A DNA stretch of 45,537 nt from Nitrososphaeraceae archaeon (GTDB lineage Archaea; Thermoproteota; Nitrososphaeria; Nitrososphaerales; Nitrosopumilaceae): NCBI GenBank assembly GCA_025930495.1, contig JAICOU010000005.1, forward strand, positions 1-45,537. Direction: 5' to 3'. The notes below the pieces were generated by a model. It was not told the origin of the DNA, did no database searches, and saw nothing but the letters and a program-made list of their open reading frames with translations. The position numbers and the translations under genes are program-made. Shown in pieces: positions 875-23,974 of the stretch. Numbering within the stretch: the stretch's first letter is position 1; each line of letters opens with the position of its first letter.

Positions 875-2260
875 ATGTCTAGAACTATATTGTTATTATC
901 AAAATTTGGAATATTTGCAATAGCTATATCTTTACTATTTCCAATATCTAGCGTTTATGGACATGGCTTAGGAATTGATACTATTAATTCAGTTGATGTA
1001 CAAGGAAAGAAAATTTCGATTTCAGTTGAACTCCCAATGTCTTTTGAGCAAACCAGTGAAAAACAAATTACAATTACAGCAACTGAAGATGAGACAAAAG
1101 AAAATGCAAAAAACGTTACATTTCTAATTGGTTTATTTCATGAAAATAAAATGATATTTAGAAACAATTTTTTCACATCTGATGGAGTTCTCCCAATAAA
1201 AGTAAATCCTACACAAGAAGGTGAGATTACAATTCATGGAGAACAGGATTCTTTGTTAGGTGCATGGCATGGAACAGCATCTGACCCAATAATGATTTCT
1301 GGCCCTATTTTCAATTCAGGTGGACTATATAATTTTGAAATCGAGGTAAGAACAATTGATGAACCAACAAACATAATTGAAAATTCTAGTGTTTACAATG
1401 CAGATCTAAGTATTGCAGATAGCACAGAATTTCTACAAAAAGATACCAAAAATCAGGATGTTCAGTTTAAAATAAAATCATACTTTGATAATATCTCTAA
1501 TTTTGAGTATGATCCTATTGCTAAACAAGTGACATTTGAGATGCCTTTTGATTGGAGTGAAACACAAATATCTCACATTCCAGTAGTGCATGAAGAGGTA
1601 CATTTTCCTAAGGATTTTGCCGAATTTTTATCTCCAAGTTATACAGGTAAAGCAAATGGAATTGACTTGTTTAAAGCATCAGTTACAATCGATGATTACA
1701 CTGAAGATGATGAAAGAATAGTTCATTTTGTTTTGTTGCAGGATCATCTCAGATTCATAAGGAATCAACTGCAAAAATCTGGAGAATCATTACCTGATAC
1801 AATTACTTTTACTCTTTCTAGATCTGAAACTATAGGATTTCCATTAACTGCATTTACAAAAAGTGAAGACTTTCAAGTAAATCTTTCATGGGATCCAATA
1901 GAAATTGTACCTGGACAAAATACAAATTTTATCTTTACAATCAGAGATGGTAAAACTGGAGAACCACTGCGTAATTCTGATTATACTTTTGTAATTATAC
2001 AAAATGGTAAGGAAATTCATAGAACAACTGGAACGGCACAAGTTGGTGGAGAATTTGAACGATACGAATTTGCTGAAGATCAAACAGGTCCTACAATTAT
2101 TAGATTAGATAACATTAGAAATACAGGTCAAGAAACTGATTTTGGAATTGTTGTTGTTCCTGAATTTGGAGCTATTACAATAATGATCCTATCTTCTACA
2201 TTATTGGTAGTTGTTTTGGCATCAAGAAATCGCTTTTCAAAAAATCTAATTTCTAATTGA
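875..2260 (+). CDS. Exported PEFG-CTERM surface protein, thaumarchaeal
   Basis: The 461-residue protein has an N-terminal signal peptide (hydrophobic residues about 4-28, probable cleavage after VYG at 29, leaving His30 as the mature N terminus). A beta-rich ectodomain follows, then a C-terminal VVVPEFG motif, a hydrophobic helix and a short basic tail. PEFG plus helix plus basic end is the PEFG-CTERM sorting signal, recognised by an archaeosortase and expected to give a processed, surface-attached protein. The ectodomain (about 30-340) is clearly related to the protein at 11428-12891: both have an ISxPIxxxxGLYxFEIEI-like stretch, an MPFxW segment and an EVHFPxxF/EIHFPxLF segment. Residues 340-420 resemble an Ig/CARDB-like beta sandwich. 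Ligand or role unknown. Confidence 0.8.
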   Translation: MSRTILLLSKFGIFAIAISLLFPISSVYGHGLGIDTINSVDVQGKKISISVELPMSFEQTSEKQITITATEDETKENAKNVTFLIGLFHENKMIFRNNFFTSDGVLPIKVNPTQEGEITIHGEQDSLLGAWHGTASDPIMISGPIFNSGGLYNFEIEVRTIDEPTNIIENSSVYNADLSIADSTEFLQKDTKNQDVQFKIKSYFDNISNFEYDPIAKQVTFEMPFDWSETQISHIPVVHEEVHFPKDFAEFLSPSYTGKANGIDLFKASVTIDDYTEDDERIVHFVLLQDHLRFIRNQLQKSGESLPDTITFTLSRSETIGFPLTAFTKSEDFQVNLSWDPIEIVPGQNTNFIFTIRDGKTGEPLRNSDYTFVIIQNGKEIHRTTGTAQVGGEFERYEFAEDQTGPTIIRLDNIRNTGQETDFGIVVVPEFGAITIMILSSTLLVVVLASRNRFSKNLISN

Positions 2261-2262
2261 TT

Positions 2263-2646
2263 TTATAATGTTACTAATTTTACAGTATCCATGTTTTTAT
2301 TTACTTGAAAATCTTTTGTAATAGTTGATACTCTTTCTGCATCACCATCAATTACAAATAATTCCATACACTTCTCTCCCTCAATTTTACTGTGGAGATG
2401 TGTTGTGATCAGATCTTCAAAATTATGTTTTATTCCAGATACAACATGATCAAATTCATCATTATGAACAACTAAAAGAATCGCATGAACATTTCCTGTT
2501 AATTGAGATTTTTGTTTTTCTTCCGAAACAAAAGTTCTGATTCCTGCCCTTATTGCTTCAGACCTACCCGAAAAGCCCATAGTTTTTTGCAACTTGTCTA
2601 ATTCTGATAAAATCTCTTGATTCAATGAAATTGAAACTATTGGCAT
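2263..2646 (-). CDS. nikR: NikR-like ribbon-helix-helix metal-responsive regulator
   Basis: The 127-residue protein has an N-terminal ribbon-helix-helix DNA-binding domain (residues 1-45: VSISLNQEIL..., GFSGRSEAIRAGIR) and a C-terminal ACT-like metal-binding domain (52-127), the architecture and length of NikR. Aligned without gaps to E. coli NikR from memory, His74, His85 and Cys93 match the nickel ligands His76, His87 and Cys95. The fourth ligand (His89) is replaced by Lys87, with an extra His at 83, so the metal preference may differ. It is transcribed away from the Znu-type ABC operon, with a 92-bp palindrome-rich spacer between them. The context suggests metal-dependent repression of that transporter (inference). 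Confidence 0.85.
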   Translation of the reverse strand: MPIVSISLNQEILSELDKLQKTMGFSGRSEAIRAGIRTFVSEEKQKSQLTGNVHAILLVVHNDEFDHVVSGIKHNFEDLITTHLHSKIEGEKCMELFVIDGDAERVSTITKDFQVNKNMDTVKLVTL

Positions 2647-2650
2647 AAAT

Positions 2651-2670
2651 GATAATTGTTATTAATTATC
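2651..2670. promoter_or_regulatory. Inverted repeat next to the nikR-like start (candidate operator)
   Basis: Arms gataatt and aattatc are perfect inverse complements separated by 6 bases. The site lies 5 bases upstream of the NikR-like start on the minus strand, a position suited to autoregulation. This is AT-rich DNA, so chance palindromes are common and the functional claim is inference. Confidence 0.4.
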
Positions 2671-2690
2671 TTATAAGTTTAGCAATTAAA

Positions 2691-2721
2691 GTTATTAATA
2701 TTTTATAAAGTTATTAATAAC
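2691..2721. promoter_or_regulatory. Direct/inverted repeat before the metal ABC operon (candidate operator)
   Basis: The 10-mer gttattaata occurs at 2691-2700 and again at 2710-2719. The second copy extends to the perfect palindrome gttattaataac (2710-2721). A related gttattaatta sits at 2658-2668 inside the neighbouring inverted repeat. The repeats end 17 bases before the GTG start of the substrate-binding protein and overlap the expected promoter position. They are the best candidates for binding by the divergent NikR-like protein. Confidence 0.45.
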
Positions 2722-2738
2722 TCATATCAAAATTATGC

Positions 2739-3659
2739 GTGAATAACCAAGTAAAACTAGCAATAATTACAATTGTAATTACAATTCCCCTAACCTCATT
2801 TGCTGTTTTTTCAAGTGATTCGAACCAAGTCAAGAAAACAAACGAATCAAAATTACAGGTTATGGCATCATTTTACCCACTACATGAATTTTCACAAATT
2901 GTTGGTAAAGAAAAAGCTGATGTAAAATTGTTAGTTCCAGTTGGAATTGAACCACATGATTGGGAACCAACAATAAAAGATGTGCAGCAAATGCAAAAAT
3001 CTGATCTTATCGTAATTAATGGAATTGGATTTGAAAGTTGGGTTGATAAATTAAATGAAATGAATTACCAAGGAGTGGTAGTTGATACAAGTAATGGAAT
3101 TATTATAAAAAATATGGATGAAGAATCTTCAGTGTATGAAGAACATGTTGATGAATCTGGAGACCCTCATATTTGGTTAAATCCTGTTTTTGCAAAAATT
3201 CAAGTCCAAAATATTGCAAATGCATTTTCTAATTCAGATCCTGAAAATCGACAATATTTTCAAGAAAATGCTGCAAATTATATATCTGAATTAGATTTAC
3301 TTGATTCAAAAATTCATAACGAATTATCTGGTTGTAATCATGATTTCATTGCATTTCATCGTGCCTTTTCATATTTTGCGGATGAATATGATCTTACCCA
3401 ACACACTATAATTTCCTCATCTGCATCACATGCAGAACCTACTGCCATGACTTTAGAAAATGTAATTAATAAAGCCAAACAGCTTAATCTCAAAGTTATT
3501 TTTACTGAAGAAATGGCTGATCCTAAAACTTCTCAAGTGATTGCAAATGAAATTGGAGGAAAAATACTAGTTTTATCTCCATTAGAAATTGGTGATGATG
3601 GAACTTACATTTCTAGAATGACTGAGAATCTGAATCATCTAAAGGAGGCATTATGTTGA
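2739..3659 (+). CDS. znuA: Metal ABC transporter substrate-binding protein (ZnuA/TroA family)
   Basis: The 306-residue protein has an N-terminal hydrophobic signal/anchor (about residues 5-25) and the cluster A-I metal-binding fold. Expected metal-site segments are present: GIEPHDWEPT, GDPHIWLNP, FHRAFSYFADEY, and a late acidic TEEMADP segment. These match the three His plus one acidic residue of ZnuA/MntC-type proteins. The loop before the second His is short and only mildly His/acid-rich. The start is GTG at 2739; the upstream ATG at 2735 runs into a stop after two codons. The gene overlaps the ATPase gene by 7 bases. Zn, Mn or another divalent ion cannot be decided from sequence alone. Confidence 0.9.
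   Translation: MNNQVKLAIITIVITIPLTSFAVFSSDSNQVKKTNESKLQVMASFYPLHEFSQIVGKEKADVKLLVPVGIEPHDWEPTIKDVQQMQKSDLIVINGIGFESWVDKLNEMNYQGVVVDTSNGIIIKNMDEESSVYEEHVDESGDPHIWLNPVFAKIQVQNIANAFSNSDPENRQYFQENAANYISELDLLDSKIHNELSGCNHDFIAFHRAFSYFADEYDLTQHTIISSSASHAEPTAMTLENVINKAKQLNLKVIFTEEMADPKTSQVIANEIGGKILVLSPLEIGDDGTYISRMTENLNHLKEALC
3644..3648 (+). promoter_or_regulatory. Shine-Dalgarno site inside the 3' end of znuA
   Basis: A strong GGAGG lies 4 bases before the ATG at 3653 and 7 bases before a TTG at 3656. The 7-base spacing favours the TTG, which would give the classic 4-base TTGA stop-start overlap with the upstream gene. Either start implies translational coupling. Confidence 0.6.
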
Positions 3660-4375
3660 AGGTTGTTGAAATTGATCATCTTACAATTGAATATCCTGAT
3701 GTAAAAGCTATAGACGATGTTAGTTTCACGGTTAACCAAGGTGACTTTTTAGGCATAATTGGCCCTAATGGAGCAGGAAAATCTACACTTTTCGCTTCAA
3801 TGCTTAATCTTAATACAAAATACAACGGTACAATCAAATTTTTTGGTACTGATATTAGAAAATCAAAAAACTATCTTAAAGAGATTGGTTATGTACCACA
3901 GAAACCAATCTTTGAGAAAAACTTTCCTGCAACAGTTAATGATGTTGTTAAAATGGGATTACAAAAAGAATCAGATGAAAATAAAGTTGATGAAATTCTG
4001 CAGCAACTTTGGATACATGAGCTAAGTGAAAGAAGAATAGGTGAATTATCTGGTGGACAACAACAACGTGTATTTATTGCAAAAGCATTAGTTAACAATC
4101 CCAAAGTTTTGATTTTAGATGAACCTGTTACAGGTATTGATCAACAAAGTATAGATCTTTTTTACAGTATTTTAAAAGAGCTAAACTCCAAACAAAATAT
4201 TACAATAATTTGGTCTTCACATGATCTAGATGCTGTAAACAAATTAGCAAATCACGTAGCTTGTCTTAATAGAACGCTTTTCTTTCATGGAGAATCTGAT
4301 GATTTCTTTGAAAATGATGAGCTTGTAAAACAATATTCTGAAGCTTCAATGCAGGAACACATGCATCATCATTAG
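3653..4375 (+). CDS. znuC: Metal ABC transporter ATPase (ZnuC family)
   Basis: The 240-residue ABC ATPase has a Walker A (GPNGAGKST, about 38-46), a Q-loop (GYVPQKP), the signature LSGGQQQRV, a Walker B (VLILDEPVTG) and an H-loop (WSSHD). It closes with MQEHMHHH, a short His cluster often seen in metal-transporter ATPases. It powers import through the permease encoded 3 bases downstream. The start is ATG 3653 or, by ribosome-site spacing, TTG 3656. Confidence 0.93.
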   Translation: MLKVVEIDHLTIEYPDVKAIDDVSFTVNQGDFLGIIGPNGAGKSTLFASMLNLNTKYNGTIKFFGTDIRKSKNYLKEIGYVPQKPIFEKNFPATVNDVVKMGLQKESDENKVDEILQQLWIHELSERRIGELSGGQQQRVFIAKALVNNPKVLILDEPVTGIDQQSIDLFYSILKELNSKQNITIIWSSHDLDAVNKLANHVACLNRTLFFHGESDDFFENDELVKQYSEASMQEHMHHH

Positions 4376-4377
4376 AA

Positions 4378-5199
4378 ATGGCTTTTGAAATTTTTACTTT
4401 TAGTTTTATGCACAGAGCAATTATCTCAGGTATTGCAATTGCCATTTTATGTTCAGTAGTAGGTCTTTTCCTAGTCTTAAGACGCTATTCATTATTTGGT
4501 GACGCTATTGCTCACTCATCATTTGGTGGAATTGCATTAGGTTTGATGGCAGGAATATATCCACTTTGGACTGCATATGGTGTTTCAATAATTAGTGCAC
4601 TAATTATGACACGAATTAAAGATAGATTCAACATATCTGGAGATGCCTCTATAGCAGTTCTTTTATCATCAGGAATTGCCTTAGGTCTCGTAATCATTGG
4701 ATTATCTGGAGGATTCACTCTTGATATTTTCAGCTTTCTTTTTGGAAGTATCCTACTTGTTAGCGTTAATGATACAATTTTGATTTTATCGTTGACTGGA
4801 ATTATTCTAATTGTAATTCTTTTACTATATCGCCAACTTCTTTACTCTACATTCAACGAAGAACAAGCCAAAGTTAGTGGTATTCCAGTTGAAAAAATCA
4901 ATTATCTTATTGTCTTTATGGCAGGAATTACTGTTGTAACTTCAATCCAGTTAGTTGGTGTTTTACTAATTTCTGCACTATTTGTAATTCCAAATGTAAC
5001 TGCAATAATGTATGGAAAGGGTTTCAAACAAACTGTAATAATTTCAATGAGCTTTTCTATATTTTCTGTAGTTGCAGGAATCCTAGTCTCATATATTTTT
5101 GATATAACACCAGCAGGAACAATTGTGTTAATTGCAATTGGAATATTTGGATGCACAATAGGAATAAAGTCTGCTGGACTATTATCACGACATAATTAA
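4378..5199 (+). CDS. znuB: Metal ABC transporter permease (ZnuB/ABC-3 family)
   Basis: The 273-residue protein is almost entirely hydrophobic with about eight membrane segments. It carries the ABC-3 family landmarks: an early LRRYSLFGDAIAHSSFGGIALG stretch (coupling region, residues about 34-55), an FxxxDxxFxxLFGSILLV-like segment, and NEEQAKVSGIPVEKINYL. It forms the membrane channel of the transporter encoded with the two preceding genes. Its 3' end overlaps the convergent copper-protein gene by 15 bases, so no terminator separates them. Confidence 0.92.
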   Translation: MAFEIFTFSFMHRAIISGIAIAILCSVVGLFLVLRRYSLFGDAIAHSSFGGIALGLMAGIYPLWTAYGVSIISALIMTRIKDRFNISGDASIAVLLSSGIALGLVIIGLSGGFTLDIFSFLFGSILLVSVNDTILILSLTGIILIVILLLYRQLLYSTFNEEQAKVSGIPVEKINYLIVFMAGITVVTSIQLVGVLLISALFVIPNVTAIMYGKGFKQTVIISMSFSIFSVVAGILVSYIFDITPAGTIVLIAIGIFGCTIGIKSAGLLSRHN

Positions 5200-7968
5200 T
5201 TCATTTAATCTTCTTTTATCTTTTAGACTTTTGACAAAAAATAACGATGTTGCAATTATGCCCATTGCAATTAATGGCGATACAATCTCGGTATATTTTA
5301 GTTGAAAATCATCTGCATCTGGTATTTGAGATACTGTTACTGGAATTTCTGTGATCTTTATCATTGCTAATTTGTTTCCTTGTTGTTCAACAAACCACAC
5401 ATTATCTTTGTCATCTGACGTTGAAAATTGTGCAAATGATGTTGCAGTCGGAATTGGAACTTCGTTCAAATTTTTGTTATATGGATCATATGCAGCAATC
5501 TTGTCTATGGTATGTTGCAGAATCCAGATATTTCCATATCTATCAAATGACATCCCATAAGGTAATGCCTCTTGATCTGGTACTGTAATTCTCTCAAATG
5601 TTTCAAGAATTGGGTTGAATTTAGTAATTGCTGTACCTGTATGTTCTGCAATCCACAAATTTCCCTCATCGTCAAAAATTAGGGCCTCTGGTGACGCAAG
5701 AGGCTTTTCCGGTGTAAATTCTGAAATATCGTTATTTTTTGGATTGATAAATCCTATTTTGCCAGAGGCTGATTCAGTAAACCAAATTTTCCCCTCATCA
5801 TCAATTGTCAAGGCAAATGGTAGTGATTCTCTTACAGGCATCTTGATCTCTTCAAATGTATCAAATTCTGGTTGATATTTCAAAATTACATCTTTGTTAG
5901 TAATTGCAATCCAAATATTTCCATCAAAATCAGCTTGTATGAAAGTAGCTATATTTTCATAAATTACAGGATCTATTTTTGGTAAAGTTTTTGTGATGAT
6001 CTGCTGATCACTAGGATCAAAATATCCTATCTGATTTCTTGGCGTATCAGTAAACCAAATTTTCCCTTGATTATCTTGTGTAAGTAGCATGGTAGTTAAT
6101 CCATCAAATGAATATGAGGTAAATTCTTGTGTATCAAGTGAGAACTGCCATAATCTTGGAGAAGATGGATCACTTACCCAAATTGAATTCTTTCCATCAT
6201 ACAAAGGATAAAGAGGTTTTGAAGATTCAGGTAACTCATATTCTATGATTTCTGTTTTAAGATCTGTTAATCTTGGTTTAACTAGTAAATTCATAAAAAT
6301 TGATTCATTTACGCTCTGTTTTCTTTGAGTCTCTATTTCCATTTGCCACTGGCCTGAAAATCCAAATGTTAACTCTCCTTGAAATTCAACTGGTCTGTCT
6401 TCTTCTTGTTTTATAATTTTCATGGGAATTTCTATTGGAGAAATATTTTTCTGAGGATTGGAAATCTTTACTTTAATTTCATTGGAATCATTTAACGGTT
6501 TATTTTCAAAATCACTAACTTTGACTAGAATTGTGTTTGCGCCGCTAGAAAATGGTGTTATGTCTATGTTGAATTTTGTATTTTCTGAAAATTCTATTGT
6601 ACTAAAACCATATGAAATTTTTTGAGCATCGGCTTGTTTGATTTCTCCAGCAGGCAATGTTCCATTAGCAAGTAATGCAACAACACCTAAAAGAGTAATT
6701 CCTAACATTACATCAAATTTCAATGATCTTTTTAGTTTCTTATATACTGCAATAGAGCCTGATTGCAAATCTTTTTCAGCCTTTTCTTGAATTTTAAACT
6801 GGAAATATCCCCCAAATCCAACCAGAATTGCCGCAATTAAAATTTTTACAAGAATTAATTTTCCATATATTGATTCAGTGATCAAACCTACATCACTTTC
6901 CAAAAGCCACATCAATGTTGGTCCAGTAATTATTACAATTCCTATTGCAACGATAAACATAGTTGAAAATCTTGGAATTAAAACAAGGGTCATCTTCTCC
7001 CGTTTTGCTTCCTCCAACTGAGAAAACGTGGGTAATAATGTAAATACAAAGTAAATTATACCTCCAATCCAAACTGCAGCCACAAAATTGTGAATATAAT
7101 CTAGAATAACTGCAGGTGTTTCTCCACTGGCTGCACCGTGTCCAATCAAACTTGAAGTTCCAATTAATCCAAGCATAGCTGCAAGCATTGGAATTTTATT
7201 TTTTATAGACAGATTCTTTTTCCTATCCATACCAAACCACAAACCAAGAAGAATGATTGTGATTGCCATTCTAATTAACCACATATTTCCAAAATTAGTT
7301 TGAATTACATTCAAAACTGAAGTTTCTAATCTTATGGTTTGTACTACTAACATCAAAATATTTGATGCAAAAACAAGTACTAGTCCAATACCTGTAATTG
7401 TCATGAACTTTCCATGATGAAAAGATTCCAGTTTATCTAGTTCTTTTCTGATTAATTGTTTACTTTGAGTTCCCCAGATTAGTATTGAAGCAATTACAAC
7501 ACCTAAAATAATGGTTTGACCAACAATTCCTGGAAATCTTGCTCCTGCTTCAGGCAAAAATACTAGCTCAGAAACATTTTGGTTGTGACTTACACCAACA
7601 TCAATTTTGATATTACCTACTGCAAAAATAAATGCACTATCCACTAAATGTCCATCAATTTTTGATAGAACTTTACTAGTTACAGTATAAACCCCATCTT
7701 CTAATGGTGGTGTAGTTACAATTAGGGAATTATCATCATCAAAATATTTGGAATCTTTATTATCGATTTGTTCTCCATTACTATCTAATACCTTAAGAGA
7801 GCTAAAATCAATTTCAATTGGTTCAGAAAAATGAACAATAATCTCTGTAATTCCCACTTGTGCATTTGATACCGAATTTGGACTAGTCTCCATAGTAAAT
7901 GGATGAGCTGCAGCATATGGAATGTATATTGATAAAATGAGCAGTGAAATAATTAGAAATTTACTCAT
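5185..7968 (-). CDS. CopC-CopD copper protein fused to a Vgb-like beta-propeller
   Basis: This 927-residue fusion has a signal peptide (1-21), then a CopC domain (about 22-125) starting at His22 after the AAA cleavage site. A mature N-terminal His is a Cu(II) ligand in CopC. A CopD-like membrane domain follows (about 150-430) with many helices and an internal HGAASG/DYIHNFVAAVWIGG region. Next comes a beta-sandwich (about 445-570), then a virginiamycin-lyase/NHL-like propeller (about 590-880) with repeats of the DxxGxIWFTE/NLWIAEHT type. A final membrane helix lies near 895-915. Bacterial CopC-CopD fusions lack the propeller. A role in copper import or delivery on the outer face of the membrane is inferred; ammonia oxidisers need much copper. 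It is divergent from the gene at 8072. Confidence 0.85.
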   Translation of the reverse strand: MSKFLIISLLILSIYIPYAAAHPFTMETSPNSVSNAQVGITEIIVHFSEPIEIDFSSLKVLDSNGEQIDNKDSKYFDDDNSLIVTTPPLEDGVYTVTSKVLSKIDGHLVDSAFIFAVGNIKIDVGVSHNQNVSELVFLPEAGARFPGIVGQTIILGVVIASILIWGTQSKQLIRKELDKLESFHHGKFMTITGIGLVLVFASNILMLVVQTIRLETSVLNVIQTNFGNMWLIRMAITIILLGLWFGMDRKKNLSIKNKIPMLAAMLGLIGTSSLIGHGAASGETPAVILDYIHNFVAAVWIGGIIYFVFTLLPTFSQLEEAKREKMTLVLIPRFSTMFIVAIGIVIITGPTLMWLLESDVGLITESIYGKLILVKILIAAILVGFGGYFQFKIQEKAEKDLQSGSIAVYKKLKRSLKFDVMLGITLLGVVALLANGTLPAGEIKQADAQKISYGFSTIEFSENTKFNIDITPFSSGANTILVKVSDFENKPLNDSNEIKVKISNPQKNISPIEIPMKIIKQEEDRPVEFQGELTFGFSGQWQMEIETQRKQSVNESIFMNLLVKPRLTDLKTEIIEYELPESSKPLYPLYDGKNSIWVSDPSSPRLWQFSLDTQEFTSYSFDGLTTMLLTQDNQGKIWFTDTPRNQIGYFDPSDQQIITKTLPKIDPVIYENIATFIQADFDGNIWIAITNKDVILKYQPEFDTFEEIKMPVRESLPFALTIDDEGKIWFTESASGKIGFINPKNNDISEFTPEKPLASPEALIFDDEGNLWIAEHTGTAITKFNPILETFERITVPDQEALPYGMSFDRYGNIWILQHTIDKIAAYDPYNKNLNEVPIPTATSFAQFSTSDDKDNVWFVEQQGNKLAMIKITEIPVTVSQIPDADDFQLKYTEIVSPLIAMGIIATSLFFVKSLKDKRRLNELIMS

Positions 7969-8071
7969 TTACTTTTCAGATTATGTTTGACAATTTAAAC
8001 AGTTTTCATTTAATTCGAAGTTTGTACCAATTCACGTAAAGATAATAACATGTGACAATAAAATAACAGTC
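7969..8071. promoter_or_regulatory. Divergent promoter region of the copper island
   Basis: This 103-bp spacer separates two oppositely transcribed exported-protein genes and must hold both promoters. It is AT-rich, with possible TATA-like stretches (tttcatttaatt, gataataaca). I see no clear palindromic operator. Confidence 0.5.
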
Positions 8072-8698
8072 ATGAAAGTTGCTATTTTGGGATTAATTGG
8101 ATTGTTACTTTCTGTTGGATTTACATCTCAAGCTTTTGCTCATACTACAGTTGAGGTAGAGCCTTACAAAATTGAAGTAGGTTGGGGACTTGAACCCCCA
8201 GTTGTAGGTATACGAAATGATTTTGTTTTTAAAATAACTGAACCTGGAGATACTCCAAATTCATACACAGGAGTTACAAATGCATTCAAAAATGTAGAAG
8301 CTACTGCCTTATTTGGCGGCATTTCTAAAAAAATTGATATCAACTCAGATCCAAAAATAGGATACTATTTCTCACCTGTCATCCCAACAAAAACTGGAAC
8401 GTATATCATGGATTTGAAAGGAGAAATTAATGGAGTTACAATTGATGTGCAAATTCCAGTTGAAGACGTAGAAAGTACTGCAATCTTGGACTTTCCTCAA
8501 ACTATTGGATCCTCATCAGATCAAGATGTAACTGCACTCAAAAATGCAATTTCATCATTACAAAGAGAAGTTTCCTCTATGAAAGACGGTTCAGAAAATG
8601 TTAGCGGTGGTGCAGCATATGACTTTGCAATTTTTGGATTATCTATTGCAGCAGCTGCAATAATCTTGGCAATAGTTGCTTTAATAAAAAGAAAATAG
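8072..8698 (+). CDS. Exported, C-terminally anchored protein with predicted N-terminal His
   Basis: The 208-residue protein has a signal peptide ending AFA (residues 21-23), so His24 would be the first mature residue. A beta-rich domain (24-140) follows with YKIEVGWGLEPPVVGIRNDFVF and a TYIMDLKGEINGV segment. A short coiled coil (about 150-172) and a C-terminal membrane helix (about 185-203) end with a basic RK tail. No named family is recognised with confidence. It is divergent from the CopC-CopD fusion and precedes a convergent blue copper protein gene. The mature N-terminal His and this context suggest an extracytoplasmic copper-binding role (inference). Confidence 0.7.
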   Translation: MKVAILGLIGLLLSVGFTSQAFAHTTVEVEPYKIEVGWGLEPPVVGIRNDFVFKITEPGDTPNSYTGVTNAFKNVEATALFGGISKKIDINSDPKIGYYFSPVIPTKTGTYIMDLKGEINGVTIDVQIPVEDVESTAILDFPQTIGSSSDQDVTALKNAISSLQREVSSMKDGSENVSGGAAYDFAIFGLSIAAAAIILAIVALIKRK

Positions 8699-8712
8699 AA
8701 AAAAGTTAATTC

Positions 8713-9555
8713 CTAAAATCTTGGAATTACTTTAGATTTTGCAGTAACGGCAACAATGCTTATGATTGCAACAGCTAGTATCATCATTGCAACTGTTCCA
8801 AATTCTGGAACAATGTTTGAGAATACTACTTGTTCACCGATAGGTCCTGTTTTTGGATCATTTATTCCATAACCTTGGAAGGTAATGGTGATCTCTACTG
8901 GATCTGATGAGCTAAGTGGTGCTGTTTCATGCATACCTTCTCCCTCATGAGCATGTGCAGCCATATCATTTAGTACTTCTGCACCATTTTGTGTTACCAT
9001 GACGTCATAGTTTGCATGTTCTGAATCTTCAAAGTCAACTGTGATTTCCATTTTTTCACCTGAAGTTGGTGCGGAAGTCATAATTGAAACTTTTGTGCCA
9101 TCAGATAACATTCCAGATGCTGTTGCATCTGTGTGTATTTCTTCACCGTCATCTTCTGTTCCTGCTTCTTGCACTACAATTAATCCTACCATCCATGGAT
9201 GAACCATACAAAAGTATGGGACTTCACCTACGGTTGTTGGTGTCCATTCATATGAACTTCCAGCCATTACTAAGCTGGAATTAAACACTTCACCTGGTGT
9301 CTCATCTGTTGCAGCACCTGAAGTAAATGTATGTGCAGCAGTATCTGTGTTAGAAAATATTACTTTTCCACCAACATCTACAGTTGCTTCTTTTGGAATG
9401 TAACATCCTTCTGCTGTTTCTTCACATCCTGGTGCACCAGATCCTGATGCTGGAATAACTGTAACTTCGCTATGATCTGCAAATGCAGCTGGTGTAATTG
9501 CAACTAATCCTGCTACAATGGCAAATAATACGAAGAGAGAGCTTATAGTCTTCAT
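8713..9555 (-). CDS. Blue copper (plastocyanin-like) protein with PEFG-CTERM anchor
   Basis: The 280-residue protein has a signal peptide (1-26, ending AAFA), then a cupredoxin domain (about 30-130). Type-1 copper ligands are visible: the His in DTAAHTFTSG and the YFCMVHPWM cluster supplying Cys, His and Met. A second beta-domain (about 140-245) resembles an Ig-like fold rich in acidic residues and His. The C terminus has a VPEFG motif, hydrophobic helix and basic end, the archaeosortase sorting signal. Thaumarchaea use such proteins in place of cytochromes for extracytoplasmic electron transfer. Gene spacing to the convergent neighbour is only 14 bases. Confidence 0.92.
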   Translation of the reverse strand: MKTISSLFVLFAIVAGLVAITPAAFADHSEVTVIPASGSGAPGCEETAEGCYIPKEATVDVGGKVIFSNTDTAAHTFTSGAATDETPGEVFNSSLVMAGSSYEWTPTTVGEVPYFCMVHPWMVGLIVVQEAGTEDDGEEIHTDATASGMLSDGTKVSIMTSAPTSGEKMEITVDFEDSEHANYDVMVTQNGAEVLNDMAAHAHEGEGMHETAPLSSSDPVEITITFQGYGINDPKTGPIGEQVVFSNIVPEFGTVAMMILAVAIISIVAVTAKSKVIPRF

Positions 9556-9614
9556 TGACTCAAGTACTTATTGGCATAAATAAAAACCTGACTGGAAATT
9601 CCATATTGTGAACT

Positions 9615-10427
9615 CTATTTTCTTTTAAACTGATATATTTTTAGAATTCCAAATATAGGAATCCCAATATACATTCCAATATTTAGTAAAACTATAGAGA
9701 TTCCATAACTTAGCATTTCTTGTTCTGAGTCAATATTGACATGATTTAGTATGGATAGTGATGTCAGCATTGGTGTTAGTGTTATTTTAACAGCTTCTTT
9801 GAAAATTGGATGTTCTCTTTCAAAGTCTGCAACTGTTGGTGAAAATGAATAATAAAATTGATTAAATGTTGTCATGAATGCCATTCCAGATTTTGTATTT
9901 AGAATCGTATTGTCTCTTAATTCTCTGAGTTGTTGTACTTGAGGGGATAATTCTGAACCAAATGTTGCAGTAGCAATTAGACAACCATTATCATTATTAT
10001 CTTTAGGGATTTCTGTAGGTTGCGCATAAGATTCTCCAACTGCAACATCAAATGAAACCTTTTCTAAAGGAATTGGTTGGAATAATATTCCCTCGATTCC
10101 AAATTCTACAGAATAAACTCCTTCATCAACAAATGGAACTGGAATTTTTACTGAACCTATTGAAGTATGAGTAAGTGGTATTGGTCCAAATATAGATTCG
10201 CCATCTTTTGAAACTGTTATTATATAATCTATGTGCTCTTGTATTTTTTTTGTTTGAGGATTGATAAAATCAATATTTAGTTTAGTTTGTTGTCCTGGAA
10301 TAATTTTATCATATGATAGTTTGACATCCAGTGTTCCTTTCTCTGTAGGTAAAGTCTGTGAATTTGTTTGTGCAAATGCTGGAGTAATCAATAATGGTAT
10401 TAAGAATAATGCGATTAGAAATCTCAC
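9615..10427 (-). CDS. Exported protein with CFI-box C-terminal domain
   Basis: The 270-residue protein has a signal peptide (1-19, ending AFA) and a beta-sandwich ectodomain (about 25-135). It then has the CFI-box-like motif CLIATATFGSELSPQVQQLR (starting near residue 148), followed by an FxxxFNQFYYSFSPTVADFE segment. A C-terminal hydrophobic helix (about 238-262) ends FKRK. The CFI-box domain recurs in thaumarchaeal exported proteins and is thought to be a C-terminal processing or attachment module. The binding partner is unknown. It lies 60 bases behind the blue copper gene start, in the same direction. Confidence 0.75.
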   Translation of the reverse strand: MRFLIALFLIPLLITPAFAQTNSQTLPTEKGTLDVKLSYDKIIPGQQTKLNIDFINPQTKKIQEHIDYIITVSKDGESIFGPIPLTHTSIGSVKIPVPFVDEGVYSVEFGIEGILFQPIPLEKVSFDVAVGESYAQPTEIPKDNNDNGCLIATATFGSELSPQVQQLRELRDNTILNTKSGMAFMTTFNQFYYSFSPTVADFEREHPIFKEAVKITLTPMLTSLSILNHVNIDSEQEMLSYGISIVLLNIGMYIGIPIFGILKIYQFKRK

Positions 10428-10554
10428 AAATTCTCTTTTTTGAGACCATGAATAAAAATTACACGCTTACTAAATCTAAAACAACTATTTAATTTCATTT
10501 TTATACAATAGTAACAGAGATTAATAACCAAATAATATCATCTTACATTATATC

Positions 10555-11379
10555 TTGAACCGTTTTTCTATCTACAATTATGCAATTTTAATTTTCACTA
10601 TTAGCTTTCTCGCTATTTCTCCAATTTATCTGGATACAGTTTTTGCCGAAGATAAAGCAGTTTCTGATCATAGTAATAAGGACATAACATATGTAGCAAA
10701 ATTTGTATGCGGTTCTATTATAGACGGTAATGGTCCATTACGACCAGGACATTATAATACTGATATCAGTATTACTAACAAACAATTATCTAAACTATCT
10801 TTCTTATGGACTGTATCTGTAAATGATGGACCAACATCTCATTCAACTTTAATGACACTAGATCATCAAAAATCAACAGGACTTGATTGTAGGGATATTA
10901 AAAAAGTAATAGGCTTAGAAAATAATACTTCTCATGTAGGAGGATTTGTATTTGTTACAATCCCACAAAATTATAATCCTGCTAATCCAAATGCTGTAAT
11001 TCAGTATTCATCAGATGACATAAACTTGTTAGACGTTCAGGTTTTCTTTACTGCAAATGCCTTAGATACATTACCACATGAAGTAGTTCTTGAAAAAATA
11101 TCATTTTATATAATTAATGATGAAACTGGTAAAATTCCAAAACATATGATCAAAACTACATTGGATGTTACACTGGAATCAAAACTAAATGTGATCTCTG
11201 ATACGGAAAGAAAAATAAAAGAAATTTTATCTTCAACATATGATATTTCTGAAAATGAATTTGATAAAATGGAGATTAGGATAAAAAATGTCTCAATAGG
11301 AGTTGGTTCTATGATAGATGATCATGCAATTTCTCTAAGTGTAGTAAAACCACAAGTGTATCCGCAAGATGAAAAATAG
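10555..11379 (+). CDS. Exported protein of unknown function
   Basis: The 274-residue protein starts at a TTG (10555). Its hydrophobic N-terminal segment (about residues 5-29) ends before VFAED, a likely signal-peptidase site. The body has mixed beta character with one YVAKFVCGSI segment and a second Cys in GLDCRDI, which could form an extracytoplasmic disulfide. There is no C-terminal membrane helix or sorting signal, so it may be released. No family recognised. It is divergent from the CFI-box gene and followed after 48 bases by the next surface-protein gene. Confidence 0.6.
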   Translation: MNRFSIYNYAILIFTISFLAISPIYLDTVFAEDKAVSDHSNKDITYVAKFVCGSIIDGNGPLRPGHYNTDISITNKQLSKLSFLWTVSVNDGPTSHSTLMTLDHQKSTGLDCRDIKKVIGLENNTSHVGGFVFVTIPQNYNPANPNAVIQYSSDDINLLDVQVFFTANALDTLPHEVVLEKISFYIINDETGKIPKHMIKTTLDVTLESKLNVISDTERKIKEILSSTYDISENEFDKMEIRIKNVSIGVGSMIDDHAISLSVVKPQVYPQDEK

Positions 11380-18738: not shown

Positions 18739-18825
18739 TAATATCTAAATTTTATTTTAATGAGAAAACTGATCCAAAAATAATCTAGTCATAAGTCTTA
18801 TTTACTCCTTTTTTAGTGAAATAGT

Positions 18826-20919
18826 ATGGAATTAGATGAAGAGCTAGAAGAGCCAAAGCGAAGTGGAATTCTTCAATCTACATCAAAGCGTGTACGAATG
18901 ATCTTTTCTGTAATGGCAAGTCCAAACAGAATAGATATTCTAAGAATTTTAAACTCCAAAGGTCCATTAACCTATTCTGAATTAAAGTCACTAGCAGGGT
19001 TCAAATCCAAAAAGGAGAGTGGCAAATTCGCATACCATCTAAGAAAATTATTGAGACAATCTCTTGTAGCCCTAAACAAATCTGAAAGACGTTATACAAT
19101 TACAAATCTTGGAAAGCTTGTCTTAAGCTTGGCAAGACAAATTGAAGAACGATCAATTATTGAAAGTGGAAAGATGTATGTTAGAACATCACATGAATCA
19201 ATTGAAGAATTCAATTCCCATAAAATTATTCAATCACTTGTACGTGAAGGTAGTCTTCCATTGGAATTAGCTCAAAAAATTACTGAAGAAGTTGAAAATA
19301 GAATTTACAAATATCAAACAACCTACCTTACTGGATCACTTATCAGAGAAATGGTAAACTCTGTTCTTTTAGAACATGGTCATGAGGAATACCGCAATAA
19401 ACTAGCACGCCTAGGCCTACCTGTATATGACATTCAAGAAATGCTCACAAATCTAGATAATGTAGATAATGGCGCAGAAGGCCTCCTTTTCAATACTGGT
19501 CAGAAAGTGTTTGCAGAACATTTACTCACAAATGTATTACCAAAAGACGTTGCTGATTCACATCTTTCTGGTGATATGCATATTTCAAATCCAGGAATTT
19601 GGTCAATGATACCTGATACCATATTTGTTAATGTAAAAGAACTGATTGAAGATGGAGTTATTCTTGGTGGAAAATATCTTGATGTATCAAGAATTACATC
19701 ATCAAAATCAATTGATGATATTGCATCTTCTTTGTCAATAATCATATCATTACTTTCCAAAGAAGCTTCGCAAGAAATTGTACTTGATGGATTGATTCCA
19801 CTCTTTACAAAATATTCAAAAAATATTCCAGAACTTGAACAAAAACTAACAGATGCCTTTGCTACTGCATCTACTACATCAAAATACAATAGAAAAGCCA
19901 CTAATGTTTCAATTAGACTTCAGTTAGGTTCTGATCTAAAAATTATTAATGCAATAATTAATGCATACAAGAATTATACAAAGATAACTCCAATTCCAAA
20001 AATTGGTTTGATTGTAGATTTCGATAAAGGAAAAGTATCTGATGTTTCCGAAGCATTAGCAGAAATAATTTCAATTGGTGGAAAAGTGATGTTTGCAAAA
20101 GGTGAAGTATCTAGTTATGGCATTACAAATGGTACAACTAAAAATTCTGGTCCACTTGCAATAACACTACAATCTGTTTCAATTAATCTTCCAAGACTTG
20201 CATTTGAATCCAATAAAGATGAAACATACTTTAGAGCAAGACTTGCATTACTTATGAAACCTGCATTATCTTCTATGGCATTAAGAAAGAAAGATATCTC
20301 TGATCTTACTAGAAGAGGACTAAATCCAATTCTTGCAAAGAATACACAATACATGCAAAGAAGTTCTGTGTCACTTATTGTTAATCTCGTAGGCCTAAAG
20401 GAATCTGTTTTCAATATTCTTGGATTCCAAGATAATAAGGAAGGAAGAGAGATACTCAATAAAGTAATAGAGACTGCAGTTGATGTTGCGGCTAAAAAAG
20501 GCAAGGAACTAGGAGATACTGTGGCTATATCCATGACTGAGACTGAGGGATCTAGTAGATTTGCAAACCTAGATGGTGAGAAATATGGTAAAAATTCTGC
20601 TCTTAGTTCTATGGATAGTGACTCTTACTCACAAGGAATAGTTCTTAACGCCTCTGAAATAGGCGATTACACAAGCAAAACCGAGATTATATCTGAATGT
20701 AATAAACTATCTAAACTACTTAATGGTGGTTTACTAGTCAGACTTGATATTGATCAGAACGCCACTCAAATTGATATCAAAAAATCAATTGAGAAAGCAG
20801 CAGAACTAACATCTTCATTCAAGCCTGTAAAGAAAGTAGCGCTTTGTGGTGAATGTGGATTCAAAGATGAACACTTTGTAGACAAGTGTCCAAAGTGCAA
20901 GTCTTCATATGTAATCTGA
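18826..20919 (+). CDS. Predicted RNR regulator: winged helix + ATP-cone + catalytically dead NrdD-like domain
   Basis: The 697-residue protein has three parts. Residues about 20-110 are an ArsR-like winged helix (ASPNRIDILRILNSKGPLTYSE..., then FAYHLRKLLRQSLV). Residues about 117-205 are an ATP-cone (MYVRTSHESIEEFNSHKIIQSL), the allosteric ATP/dATP sensor of ribonucleotide reductases. Residues about 215-660 resemble anaerobic NrdD (HLSGDMHISN, SINLPRLAF, NLVGLKESVFNILG, ETEGSSRFANLD). The end is a zinc ribbon with Cys674, 677, 688 and 691. Only one other Cys exists (about 625), and there is no glycyl-radical motif, so reductase chemistry is ruled out. It precedes the class II RNR gene in the same direction. 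I infer a nucleotide-responsive transcription regulator. The domain calls are motif-based. Confidence 0.85.
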   Translation: MELDEELEEPKRSGILQSTSKRVRMIFSVMASPNRIDILRILNSKGPLTYSELKSLAGFKSKKESGKFAYHLRKLLRQSLVALNKSERRYTITNLGKLVLSLARQIEERSIIESGKMYVRTSHESIEEFNSHKIIQSLVREGSLPLELAQKITEEVENRIYKYQTTYLTGSLIREMVNSVLLEHGHEEYRNKLARLGLPVYDIQEMLTNLDNVDNGAEGLLFNTGQKVFAEHLLTNVLPKDVADSHLSGDMHISNPGIWSMIPDTIFVNVKELIEDGVILGGKYLDVSRITSSKSIDDIASSLSIIISLLSKEASQEIVLDGLIPLFTKYSKNIPELEQKLTDAFATASTTSKYNRKATNVSIRLQLGSDLKIINAIINAYKNYTKITPIPKIGLIVDFDKGKVSDVSEALAEIISIGGKVMFAKGEVSSYGITNGTTKNSGPLAITLQSVSINLPRLAFESNKDETYFRARLALLMKPALSSMALRKKDISDLTRRGLNPILAKNTQYMQRSSVSLIVNLVGLKESVFNILGFQDNKEGREILNKVIETAVDVAAKKGKELGDTVAISMTETEGSSRFANLDGEKYGKNSALSSMDSDSYSQGIVLNASEIGDYTSKTEIISECNKLSKLLNGGLLVRLDIDQNATQIDIKKSIEKAAELTSSFKPVKKVALCGECGFKDEHFVDKCPKCKSSYVI

Positions 20920-20978
20920 AATTCGTAAATCAAAAACTAGTTCCGATCATTTTAGAAAACATTTTGATCAGTTTTAGA

Positions 20979-21006
20979 CATACGATCATTACACTGAATT
21001 CATGAC
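20979..21006. repeat. 28-bp direct repeat, copy 1 (candidate RNR operator)
   Basis: Matches copy 2 at 21168-21195 in 25 of 28 positions. The last 15 bases, cactgaattcatgac, are identical, and both copies share cgatcat near the start. Copies are 189 bases apart in the same orientation. Confidence 0.7.
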
Positions 21007-21167
21007 GGCTTAAGACAAATGCGTTAGGTGTCAACAAATCATAATTATAGCCTAACGATTCTCGCTCTTACGTTGATGACTATATTGACTTCTTTAAGTG
21101 TCTATATACAAAATCATAAACAGTATGAGCTAACAAAAATTCACTAATGGTTATACTATAAATTTTT

Positions 21168-21195
21168 CATGCGATCATCGCACTGAATTCATGAC
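21168..21195. repeat. 28-bp direct repeat, copy 2 (candidate RNR operator)
   Basis: This copy contains the perfect interrupted palindrome tgcgatcatcgca (6-bp arms, one central base), which copy 1 has in a decayed form. It is followed by tgactggttgatcag, giving another GATCA site 3' of the repeat. It lies 127 bases before the nrdJ start. Confidence 0.7.
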
Positions 21196-21309
21196 TGGTT
21201 GATCAGAAAAACCATTCCAACATCAATTGGACCGTTGTCAATATTATTGAACTGAAATTTTAGAAAAAACTGCCAAATCATTTATACCATCTTATTTCTT
21301 ACCTCTTGC

Positions 21310-21315
21310 GGGGAG
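21310..21315 (+). promoter_or_regulatory. Ribosome-binding site fixing the TTG start of nrdJ
   Basis: GGGGAG sits 7 bases before the TTG at 21323. This supports the TTG as the real start and shows that the transcript has a 5' leader rather than being leaderless. Confidence 0.6.
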
Positions 21316-21322
21316 ATTATAA

Positions 21323-23974
21323 TTGGATAAATCACAAATAGAAAGTACTATCAATGAGATCCGTAAGCGCAGTGGCGCTGTAACGGCTTTCAATCAAGAT
21401 AAAATTTCAAACGCTATATTTAGAGCGTTGGCAGCCACCTCTAAAGCCGACCGTGCGCTAGCCGATCAACTTGCAAATAAAGTCGTGCAAAAATTAGTCG
21501 AACAAGGATTCACAAGTTCTAGAACTCCCACCGTTGAGGATATTCAAGATATTGTGGAATCAACCCTTATTGATTGTGGTAACAGCGACATTGCAAAGGC
21601 GTATATCGTTTACAGACATGAACGAAGAAAATTAAGAGACGAAAAAATGAAAGTCTTAAACACAAAATTTTTAGATACTGTCTCAAAGAATTTTGATCTA
21701 AATTGCTTGAGAGTATTAGCATCTAGATATCTTTTCAGAAATAGTAAAAATGAAATCACTGAATCTCCAACTCAAATGTTTGAAAGAGTAGCAATTCTAG
21801 TTGGAATTGGCGATATTCTATATGATGCACAAGTATTTGATAAATCTGGAAATATCACCCAAAATACTGAAGAAGCACGTACATATCTTGAGAAATTAGA
21901 CAATTTTGATTACAAATTCAAGATTGGAGAATACTTTCTCAACAAGTGGCACTTTAGATCTTTAATCAATCACTATGTAACACTTGCAAACAAAGGCCAG
22001 ATGAAAGTTAACTTTAAAGATCTTCTGACATTACTTGCAGCCAAAAAATTTGATAACTATGCAGACAAGATTACAGAATATTTTGAATTGATGACTGCAC
22101 AAGATTTCCTGCCAAACTCACCAACAATGATGAATGCTGGTGGTAGATTGGGTCAGCTTTCTGCATGTTTTGTTCTTGGTATGCCCGATGATATGGAACA
22201 AATCATGAAATCAACTTCTGATGCAGCACTAATTTTCAAGTCTGGAGGAGGAGTGGGAATCAACTATTCTGATCTTCGTGAAGAAGGCGATATTGTTGCA
22301 TCAACATCTGGTGTAGCATCAGGTCCCGTCTCTTTTATGAATATTATCAATACTGTAACTGAAGTTGTAAAACAAGGTGGAAAAAGAAGAGGAGCTAATA
22401 TGGGAATCATTGAAGCCTGGCATCCTGATGTTGAAAAATTCATTACAAATAAAACCGAGCCTGGTGTATTGGAGAACTTTAATGTCAGTGTAGGCATATG
22501 GGAAGACTTTTGGAATGCACTTGTAAATACAGATGATGGCAAGTACATGTTACGTAGTCCACGTGACAGAAAACCAGTAAGAGAAATCAATGCACATCAA
22601 TTAATTGATTTGATAGCTATGTCTGCATGGAAGAGTGCCGAGCCTGGATTGATCTTCTTTGATCAAATTAACAAATACAATGTATTTGCCAAAGCAAGAC
22701 AATCTCCACTAAGAGCTACAAATCCATGTGGCGAACAAAGTCTATATCCATACGAATCATGCAATCTTGGTTCCATCAATTTGGTGAATCTTGTAAAAAG
22801 AAAAGCTGATGGAGAATACGAATTTGATTGGCAAAGATACGAAGAAACAATCAGAAAGACAACCAGATTCTTGGATAACATCATTGATGTGAATAATTAC
22901 CCCGTAAAAGATATTGACATTGCATCTAAAGATTCTAGAAGAATTGGATTGGGTGTGATGGGAGTTGCAGATCTATTATACAAATTAAAAATTCCATACA
23001 ACTCCAAGGAAGGCTATGAACTACAATCAAAACTATCTGAAGCATTAACCTATTATTCCATGGAGGAAAGTGTAGCACTTGCAAAATCTCGAGGTGAATT
23101 TCCACTTTGCTCAAAGACAGAATATCCAGAAGGAAAGATTCCAATTGCAGGATATTATGAGAAACCTAAAGAATCACATTGCTATGAATGGGATGCACTA
23201 ATTGAGAAAATTAAGAAGCATGGAATAAGAAATGTCTTGACTACTACCGTAGCTCCAACTGGAACATTATCTATGATTGCTGATTGTTCAAATGGAATGG
23301 AACCAGCATTTGCTTTAGTATTTGAAAAGAGAGTAACTGTAGGCAGGTTCTTCTATACCAACAAGATTGTTGAAGAAGTACTCAAAGAACATGGTCTATA
23401 CAGCGATGAACTACTTGCAAAGATTGCAGACAATTATGGATCTCTAAAAGGAATTCCTGAAATCCCACAATGGATGCAAGATGTCTTTGTTACTGCAATG
23501 GATATTCACTGGGCAGATCATCTAATGGCTCAAGGTGTATGGCAAGATTGGATAGGAAATGCAATTGCCAAGACAATTAACATGCCCTATGATGTTACTG
23601 CAGATGATGTGAAATCTGCATATCTACTAGCACATGAATTGGGATTAAAGGGAATCACCGTATATCGTGATGGCTCTAGACACAAGCAAGTACTTCATAT
23701 GACAAGTGAAAATGCACAAAAAACATTTGATGTTACACCAAGCGAATATGTTACTGGATATGTAACAACTATGATTTCAAACCCATACATCAAATCTCAA
23801 GTACATAGTGCACTTGAACTCAAAGTGCATGATGAAGAAATCACATCTGAACCTATGAGACAAGAAGAGGTATCTGAAGATCGTCTATGTCCAACATGCA
23901 AAAACAATCTTGTATTTGTAGAAGGATGCAGTATCTGCATAGAATGTGGATTCAGCGGTTGTACTTCTGGATAA
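21323..23974 (+). CDS. nrdJ: Class II (adenosylcobalamin-dependent) ribonucleotide reductase
   Basis: The 883-residue enzyme reduces ribonucleotides to deoxyribonucleotides. An N-terminal ATP-cone (about 10-100: VTAFNQDKISNAIFRAL) is the overall activity switch. The catalytic barrel carries LSACFVLGM (first redox Cys near residue 281), NPCGEQSLYPYESCNLGS (radical-transfer Cys and Glu near 468) and TVAPTGTLSMIA. The tail has a CPTC...CSICIECGFSGC zinc/redox cluster that could regenerate the active site. The start is TTG with a good ribosome-binding site. The B12 dependence fits thaumarchaea, which make cobalamin. The preceding gene encodes a dead NrdD-like regulator and the intervening 403 bp hold repeats, so dedicated control is likely. 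Confidence 0.95.
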   Translation: MDKSQIESTINEIRKRSGAVTAFNQDKISNAIFRALAATSKADRALADQLANKVVQKLVEQGFTSSRTPTVEDIQDIVESTLIDCGNSDIAKAYIVYRHERRKLRDEKMKVLNTKFLDTVSKNFDLNCLRVLASRYLFRNSKNEITESPTQMFERVAILVGIGDILYDAQVFDKSGNITQNTEEARTYLEKLDNFDYKFKIGEYFLNKWHFRSLINHYVTLANKGQMKVNFKDLLTLLAAKKFDNYADKITEYFELMTAQDFLPNSPTMMNAGGRLGQLSACFVLGMPDDMEQIMKSTSDAALIFKSGGGVGINYSDLREEGDIVASTSGVASGPVSFMNIINTVTEVVKQGGKRRGANMGIIEAWHPDVEKFITNKTEPGVLENFNVSVGIWEDFWNALVNTDDGKYMLRSPRDRKPVREINAHQLIDLIAMSAWKSAEPGLIFFDQINKYNVFAKARQSPLRATNPCGEQSLYPYESCNLGSINLVNLVKRKADGEYEFDWQRYEETIRKTTRFLDNIIDVNNYPVKDIDIASKDSRRIGLGVMGVADLLYKLKIPYNSKEGYELQSKLSEALTYYSMEESVALAKSRGEFPLCSKTEYPEGKIPIAGYYEKPKESHCYEWDALIEKIKKHGIRNVLTTTVAPTGTLSMIADCSNGMEPAFALVFEKRVTVGRFFYTNKIVEEVLKEHGLYSDELLAKIADNYGSLKGIPEIPQWMQDVFVTAMDIHWADHLMAQGVWQDWIGNAIAKTINMPYDVTADDVKSAYLLAHELGLKGITVYRDGSRHKQVLHMTSENAQKTFDVTPSEYVTGYVTTMISNPYIKSQVHSALELKVHDEEITSEPMRQEEVSEDRLCPTCKNNLVFVEGCSICIECGFSGCTSG

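Follow-up and report, generated by a model that had tools for sequence, protein, structure and literature searches.

Our data describe a family of archaeal proteins in which a catalytically dead NrdD, the class III (anaerobic) ribonucleotide reductase (RNR), is joined to a winged helix and an ATP-cone. We consider it probable that these proteins act as nucleotide-sensing, DNA-binding regulators of the adjacent RNR gene and of their own gene. The protein examined most closely is encoded in a stretch of DNA of 45,537 nucleotides, hereafter the window, from a Nitrosarchaeum-like ammonia oxidiser of the Nitrosopumilaceae (family f1; f2 and f3 are other families of the same order). The first-pass annotation had taken it for an analogue of the bacterial repressor NrdR that controls nrdJ. 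Descent from NrdD, dead catalysis, the domain fusion, the constrained cone and the linkage to RNR genes all speak for this proposal, while the control of nrdJ itself is weakened by the lack of a conserved element upstream of nrdJ in f3.

In the mechanism that we favour, a duplicated class III RNR would have become a DNA-binding nucleotide sensor. The winged helix would bind DNA, the ATP-cone would read the ATP/dATP state, and the dead NrdD body would be chiefly a scaffold, holding two subunits together and linking cone to winged helix. Targets would be the neighbouring RNR gene (nrdJ here, where direct action is presumed, and nrdD or another nrdJ elsewhere) and the gene of the regulator itself. 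By analogy with NrdR (PMC9110341) and with NrdD, in which the cone drives changes in oligomeric state (PMC11226230), the protein is probably a dATP-dependent repressor, so that high dATP would lower RNR expression.

Table 1. Positions of the features discussed; coordinates refer to the window unless another locus is named.
Sequence	Feature	Positions	Strand	Remarks
Window	Regulator gene, 697 aa: winged helix, ATP-cone, inactive NrdD body, zinc ribbon	18826-20919	+	Start codon ATG
Window	Winged-helix domain, putatively DNA-binding, residues 18-110	18877-19155	+	Pfam DUF7347/HTH_20; identity by domain
Window	ATP-cone, residues 111-200 (Pfam 117-189)	19156-19425	+	Pfam; family signature
Window	NrdD-like body, residues 201-671	19426-20838	+	Catalytic motifs lost, structural residues kept
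Window	C-terminal zinc ribbon of NrdD type, CxxC...CxxC (C674, C677, C688, C691)	20839-20916	+
Window	nrdJ, class II (B12-dependent) RNR, 883 aa, with N-terminal ATP-cone	21323-23974	+	Only functional RNR found in the genome
Window	Intergenic region, regulator gene to nrdJ	20920-21322	.
Window	AGTCATAAGTCTTATTTA, candidate autoregulatory operator	18787-18804	+	Holds palindrome ATAAG-T-CTTAT; overlaps TATA-like box of regulator gene
Window	CGATCATCG, palindrome upstream of nrdJ	21172-21180	.
Window	TTTATA, conserved TATA-like box of nrdJ	21281-21286	+
Window	33-nt direct repeat before nrdJ	20979-21011 / 21168-21200		85% identical, 189 nt apart
Window	927-aa protein with joined CopC, CopD and Vgb-lyase/SMP-30-like beta-propeller domains	5185-7968	-
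L113	CdvB-like gene	10033-10644
L114	CdvB-like gene	10380-11003
L115	CdvB-like gene	7446-8057
L118	Cluster of dead NrdD regulator, glutaredoxin-like gene and intact nrdD (f26)	5025-9979
L189	Same cluster (f26)	4986-10005
L160	Homologue with zinc ribbon seemingly lost	1423-3516
L117	Homologue with zinc ribbon seemingly lost	1986-3908
L129	Homologue with zinc ribbon seemingly lost	8056-9903
L131	Homologue with zinc ribbon seemingly lost	8567-10357

The combination of winged helix, ATP-cone and NrdD-like body that had been read from the sequence is borne out by Pfam. Both winged-helix profiles match residues 26-100 above cut-off (DUF7347 with 40.9 bits versus 27.6, HTH_20 with 32.9 versus 27), the ATP-cone profile PF03477 gives 35.7 bits versus 25.8, and NRDD (PF13597) covers residues 442-693 with an E-value of 1.9e-27. 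None of the NCBIfam NrdD equivalog cut-offs is reached (86.8 bits versus 326 for TIGR02487), the NrdR profile TIGR00244 does not match the window protein, and the ArsR/SmtB metalloregulator profile NF033788 stays below its cut-off (23.7 versus 55 bits). As had been noticed, a single cysteine lies outside the ribbon; it is in the body, and the other four of the protein's five belong to the ribbon. Since the chain stops six residues past the ribbon, the glycyl-radical loop is absent. A structural match to NrdD was also found: with an AF2 model of the whole protein (mean pLDDT only 54.6, close orthologues only, hence of modest confidence and used solely for the fold search) the first 36 Foldseek matches are anaerobic RNRs, with E-values down to 1.2e-11. 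A model of the N-terminal 215 residues (pLDDT 44) was uninformative for or against a winged helix or cone and was set aside, so the assignment of these two domains rests on profiles and conservation.

That the architecture is not a chance product follows from 42 Nitrosopumilaceae orthologues, which align over their full length with 76–94% identity to the window protein; its closest loci are from Nitrosarchaeum. Many marine orthologues (e.g. L040, L055, L064) carry a long acidic D/L/S repeat in the start region, N-terminal to the winged helix, which is missing in the window's species. Two contigs labelled Phycisphaerales and Proteobacteria bacterium (L027 and L064) hold the archaeal regulator gene at 85–87% identity and are probably mis-binned. 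As to other features of the window, Rfam found only a tRNA, and the joining of CopC, CopD and beta-propeller domains in one long reading frame is listed in Table 1.

The gene had been placed directly upstream of a class II RNR, and this holds: nrdJ, identified by TIGR02504, starts 403 nt 3' of it on the same strand. The same order is seen at all 77 Nitrosopumilaceae loci with enough contig and at 19 of 22 testable loci of f2 and f3 (no nrdJ was found within the 1.3–1.6 kb examined at L204, L206 and L216). Several other lineages show the predicted linkage with a different partner on the same strand. Directly downstream of the regulator lies an intact nrdD in f36, a frameshifted nrdD in f28 and a different, cone-less NrdJ type (PRK08665) in f17, while in the two f26 genomes an intact nrdD follows with a glutaredoxin gene between them, whose product may reduce that NrdD. 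A constant neighbour beside a partner of changing class points to a functional link with RNR, and we regard this as the strongest argument. As the gene is followed by nrdD in some lineages and by nrdJ in others, and NrdR was not found in ammonia oxidisers, the idea of a regulator is now stronger than when it was first proposed. Neither of the two outcomes named at that time as fatal to it, a failure to match NrdD or ATP-cone structurally and a lack of conserved linkage in relatives, was obtained.

How widely the family is spread was surveyed in 300 Thermoproteota genomes. Matches at E ≤ 1e-5 occur in 212 of them. In 38 of these the best match is weaker than 1e-30, and some of those matches are intact NrdDs; without the 38, a count by hand leaves 174 genomes with a match at E ≤ 1e-30, among them every one of the 50 from the window's own order. 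Further samples add 40 of 41 f3 genomes and six of seven from f2, the misses being incomplete genomes. NrdR (TIGR00244) exceeds its cut-off in only 22 of the 300, all from family f4, which has the fusion regulator as well, so the two are not mutually exclusive; in one f4 genome (G285) NrdR adjoins nrdD. It was found neither in the window's genome nor in the ammonia oxidisers surveyed. In the window's genome PF02867 finds one RNR (nrdJ), PF13597 only the window protein, and PF03477 just two cones, those of the window protein and of NrdJ. We found no description of the family in the literature searched, which consisted of open-access papers, so novelty is unproven; orthology databases may hold it as an unnamed cluster.

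Control of the regulator's own gene is suggested by its promoter. AGTCATAAGTCTTATTTA, with its palindromic core, is conserved there in Nitrosopumilaceae; its f3 counterpart, TACAAAGTAGTTTTAAT, is kept across f3 genera, and a related element is present in f2. The f3 motif reaches 21.4 bits versus about 10 for shuffled sequence. Such conservation suggests autoregulation, but the element could also be an unusually conserved core promoter. Six f3 genomes were scanned for it and gave no second strong match except in G283, an AT-rich genome with two sites at 2 mismatches each; weaker matches were about as frequent as with the reversed pattern. The outcome of scans in Nitrosopumilaceae was similar (one 2-mismatch site in G021).

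These scans bear on a wider possibility, in which RNR is only one target of a protein that regulates nucleotide metabolism or the cell cycle more broadly, acting on pyrimidine synthesis as well as RNR and perhaps on division. The pyrB gene lies convergent and no more than 60 nt downstream of the regulator in eight families (f4, f20, f22, f27, f41, f46, f48 and f51); in f2, f3, f26 and f28 it is a few kb away at most. Such proximity suggests that the role of the regulator extends further into nucleotide metabolism, and that pyrB, not an RNR gene, is the neighbour in many families counts against our main reading. Three f3 genomes have a gene of CdvB type (ESCRT-III, division) directly upstream on the same strand, giving the order CdvB-regulator-nrdJ. 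Moreover, the winged helix is 93–95% identical between f1 and f3, as expected under constraint by many sites, and a domain so nearly frozen seems excessive for a regulator of a single target. However, the pairing with pyrB may go back to a single ancestral arrangement, shared control does not follow from convergent orientation, and hardly any second strong site of the promoter element exists in the twelve genomes scanned. A broader role is thus a serious possibility, though on balance an unlikely one.

One can go further and suppose that both allosteric logics of RNR were kept. The cone would read ATP/dATP, a remodelled site in the body or at its dimer interface would read another nucleotide, and the size and composition of the pool would together set how strongly RNR, pyrB and perhaps division genes are transcribed. 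The family would then go back to a master regulator that arose from an RNR and was already present in the ancestor of much of Thermoproteota. This is speculation, to which we give little credence.

Upstream of nrdJ, CGATCATCG is present in 52 of the 77 Nitrosopumilaceae loci, with no further copy in about 880 kb of locus sequence, and TATGAA-N-TTCATA in 40 of the 77, although these loci are related and the counts not independent. In f3 neither palindrome is found upstream of nrdJ, and a motif search of that region returned no conserved element besides the start of the coding sequence. CGATCATCG and the GATCA elements were therefore dropped as an nrdJ operator, being absent in f3 despite the nearly identical winged helix. 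For the main reading this is a difficulty: with a winged helix 93–95% identical, a missing nrdJ operator in f3 counts against it. Control of nrdJ could instead come from co-transcription with the regulator gene, for which f2, with a gap of 85 nt, is the most plausible case; in Nitrosopumilaceae, however, nrdJ is preceded by a separate conserved TATA-like box and probably has its own promoter. The direct repeat before nrdJ (Table 1) is built around CATxCGATCATxxCACTGAATTCATGAC.

Overlap with the TATA region is typical of repression. The Nitrosopumilaceae palindromes are located about 70–105 nt before the nrdJ TATA-like box, where activators more typically bind, which would fit a regulator that activates nrdJ instead of repressing it. 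We think this rather unlikely, as the palindromes are missing in f3 though the winged helix is the same, and the element in the regulator's own promoter overlaps the TATA region. Repression is the mode we prefer.

Identity by domain shows where constraint lies. Within Nitrosopumilaceae its mean is 99.5% for the winged helix, 95.7% for the cone and 74–83% for most of the body, segment 446-520 being an exception (93%). Between Nitrosopumilaceae and f3 the winged helix keeps 93–95%, the cone 68–85% and body segments 21–57%, and when ammonia oxidisers are compared with other families, identity is 34–61% for the cone, 26–39% for the winged helix and mostly 11–28% for the body. The fused cone proposed at the outset is thus strongly constrained, and no other domain is kept so well from one distant family to another. 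Judging from these values, selection is holding the sensor and the DNA-binding part, with the body free to drift. The signature of the cone (V-R-T-S / E-x-F-D/N / K-I / Y-L-T / R174 / Y-R / R195-x-G-x-P) is nearly invariant, and R120, R174, G197 and P199 are invariant in all 40 homologues aligned. The usual phosphate-binding pair of ATP-cones is K-R. In this family T-S stands in its place, which counts against a nucleotide sensor, an objection tempered by some intact NrdDs of the same archaea that vary there too.

Conservation spans the whole winged-helix domain, beyond the recognition helix, as might be expected of a protein-interaction module. The protein would then be a pseudoenzyme subunit acting on RNR by contact, in line with the NrdD structural residues retained in its body and with the regulatory oligomers that RNR subunits form (PMC11226230). 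But its partners vary in type (two kinds of NrdJ, and NrdD), which makes a single contact surface unlikely, and the winged-helix profiles match above cut-off. We find action by contact very doubtful and keep to a DNA-binding regulator.

Loss of catalysis was followed in an alignment of 12 intact Thermoproteota NrdDs and 24 fusion proteins, later widened to 40 loci from 32 families. In Prevotella copri NrdD the radical residues are Cys171, Cys416 and Gly711 (PMC11226230), and HxHD is the triphosphate-substrate motif of NrdD (PMC4493059). In the alignment the positions lost from the family are the counterparts of these three residues. The Cys of the first barrel strand is lost in 40 of 40 homologues, the finger-loop positions hold Cys in one and two of 40, and none has the full catalytic set; the glycyl-radical motif R-[VI]-x-G-Y (R-V-x-G-Y) and the tail, present in the intact NrdDs compared, are absent at the C-terminus of all 40. 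The second His of HxHD is found in no homologue (Ser254 takes its place in the window protein), and the NxN flap is lost too. What had been noted for one protein, namely that catalytic Cys and glycyl-radical motif are missing, therefore applies to all 40. That the regulator is itself an active class III RNR, as its Pfam NRDD match might imply, can be practically dismissed, given the lost Cys/Gly radical positions and HxHD and scores far below the NrdD equivalog cut-offs.

Other features of NrdD persist. N-x-P-R, G510, E513 and D573 (numbering of the intact L118 NrdD) are kept in 37–40 of 40 homologues and the zinc ribbon in 37–38, although its seeming loss in several homologues (Table 1) means that it may be dispensable. 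In a maximum-likelihood tree of 42 proteins, root untested, one branch with support 100/99 splits dead from intact NrdDs, which is consistent with a single loss of catalysis; in L118 the two stand side by side. Domains, tree and retained structural residues together support the origin first suggested, by retooling of an anaerobic RNR. Sensing at the specificity site of the dead body was considered and demoted, the Gln/loop-2 positions of NrdD being largely lost.

As far as the papers searched show, regulation of deoxynucleotide supply in archaea without NrdR is undescribed, and the family offers a concrete candidate regulator for it in ammonia oxidisers and across Thermoproteota. It would be a case of an enzyme recast as regulator of its own pathway, a dead class III RNR placed beside a working RNR, even one of another class. 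There is also a practical side for annotation: since members match NRDD profiles, an organism without any anaerobic RNR could be credited with one.

Among known systems the closest in design is NrdR, the bacterial RNR repressor, which likewise joins an ATP-cone to a DNA-binding domain, often adjoins RNR genes, as in the nrdRJ arrangement of Streptomyces coelicolor (PMC9110341), and often controls its own gene. The DNA-binding part of NrdR, however, is an N-terminal zinc ribbon, whereas the regulator has a winged helix there and its ribbon at the C-terminus; NrdR has about 150 residues versus about 700, which include a whole dead NrdD body. On our main reading the regulator is best seen as NrdR-like in function, non-homologous and not a member of NrdR. 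With active NrdD (class III, PF13597, TIGR02487) it shares descent, body fold, ATP-cone, zinc ribbon and many structural residues, but it is without the catalytic Cys set, the glycyl radical, HxHD and NxN, and has gained a winged helix. HTH_20/ArsR-type regulators and DUF7347 proteins match its N-terminal domain by profile, and it differs from them by the fused ATP-cone and dead RNR. The only other ATP-cone in the genome, that of the neighbouring NrdJ, belongs to an enzyme, and in enzymes cones control activity, not transcription.
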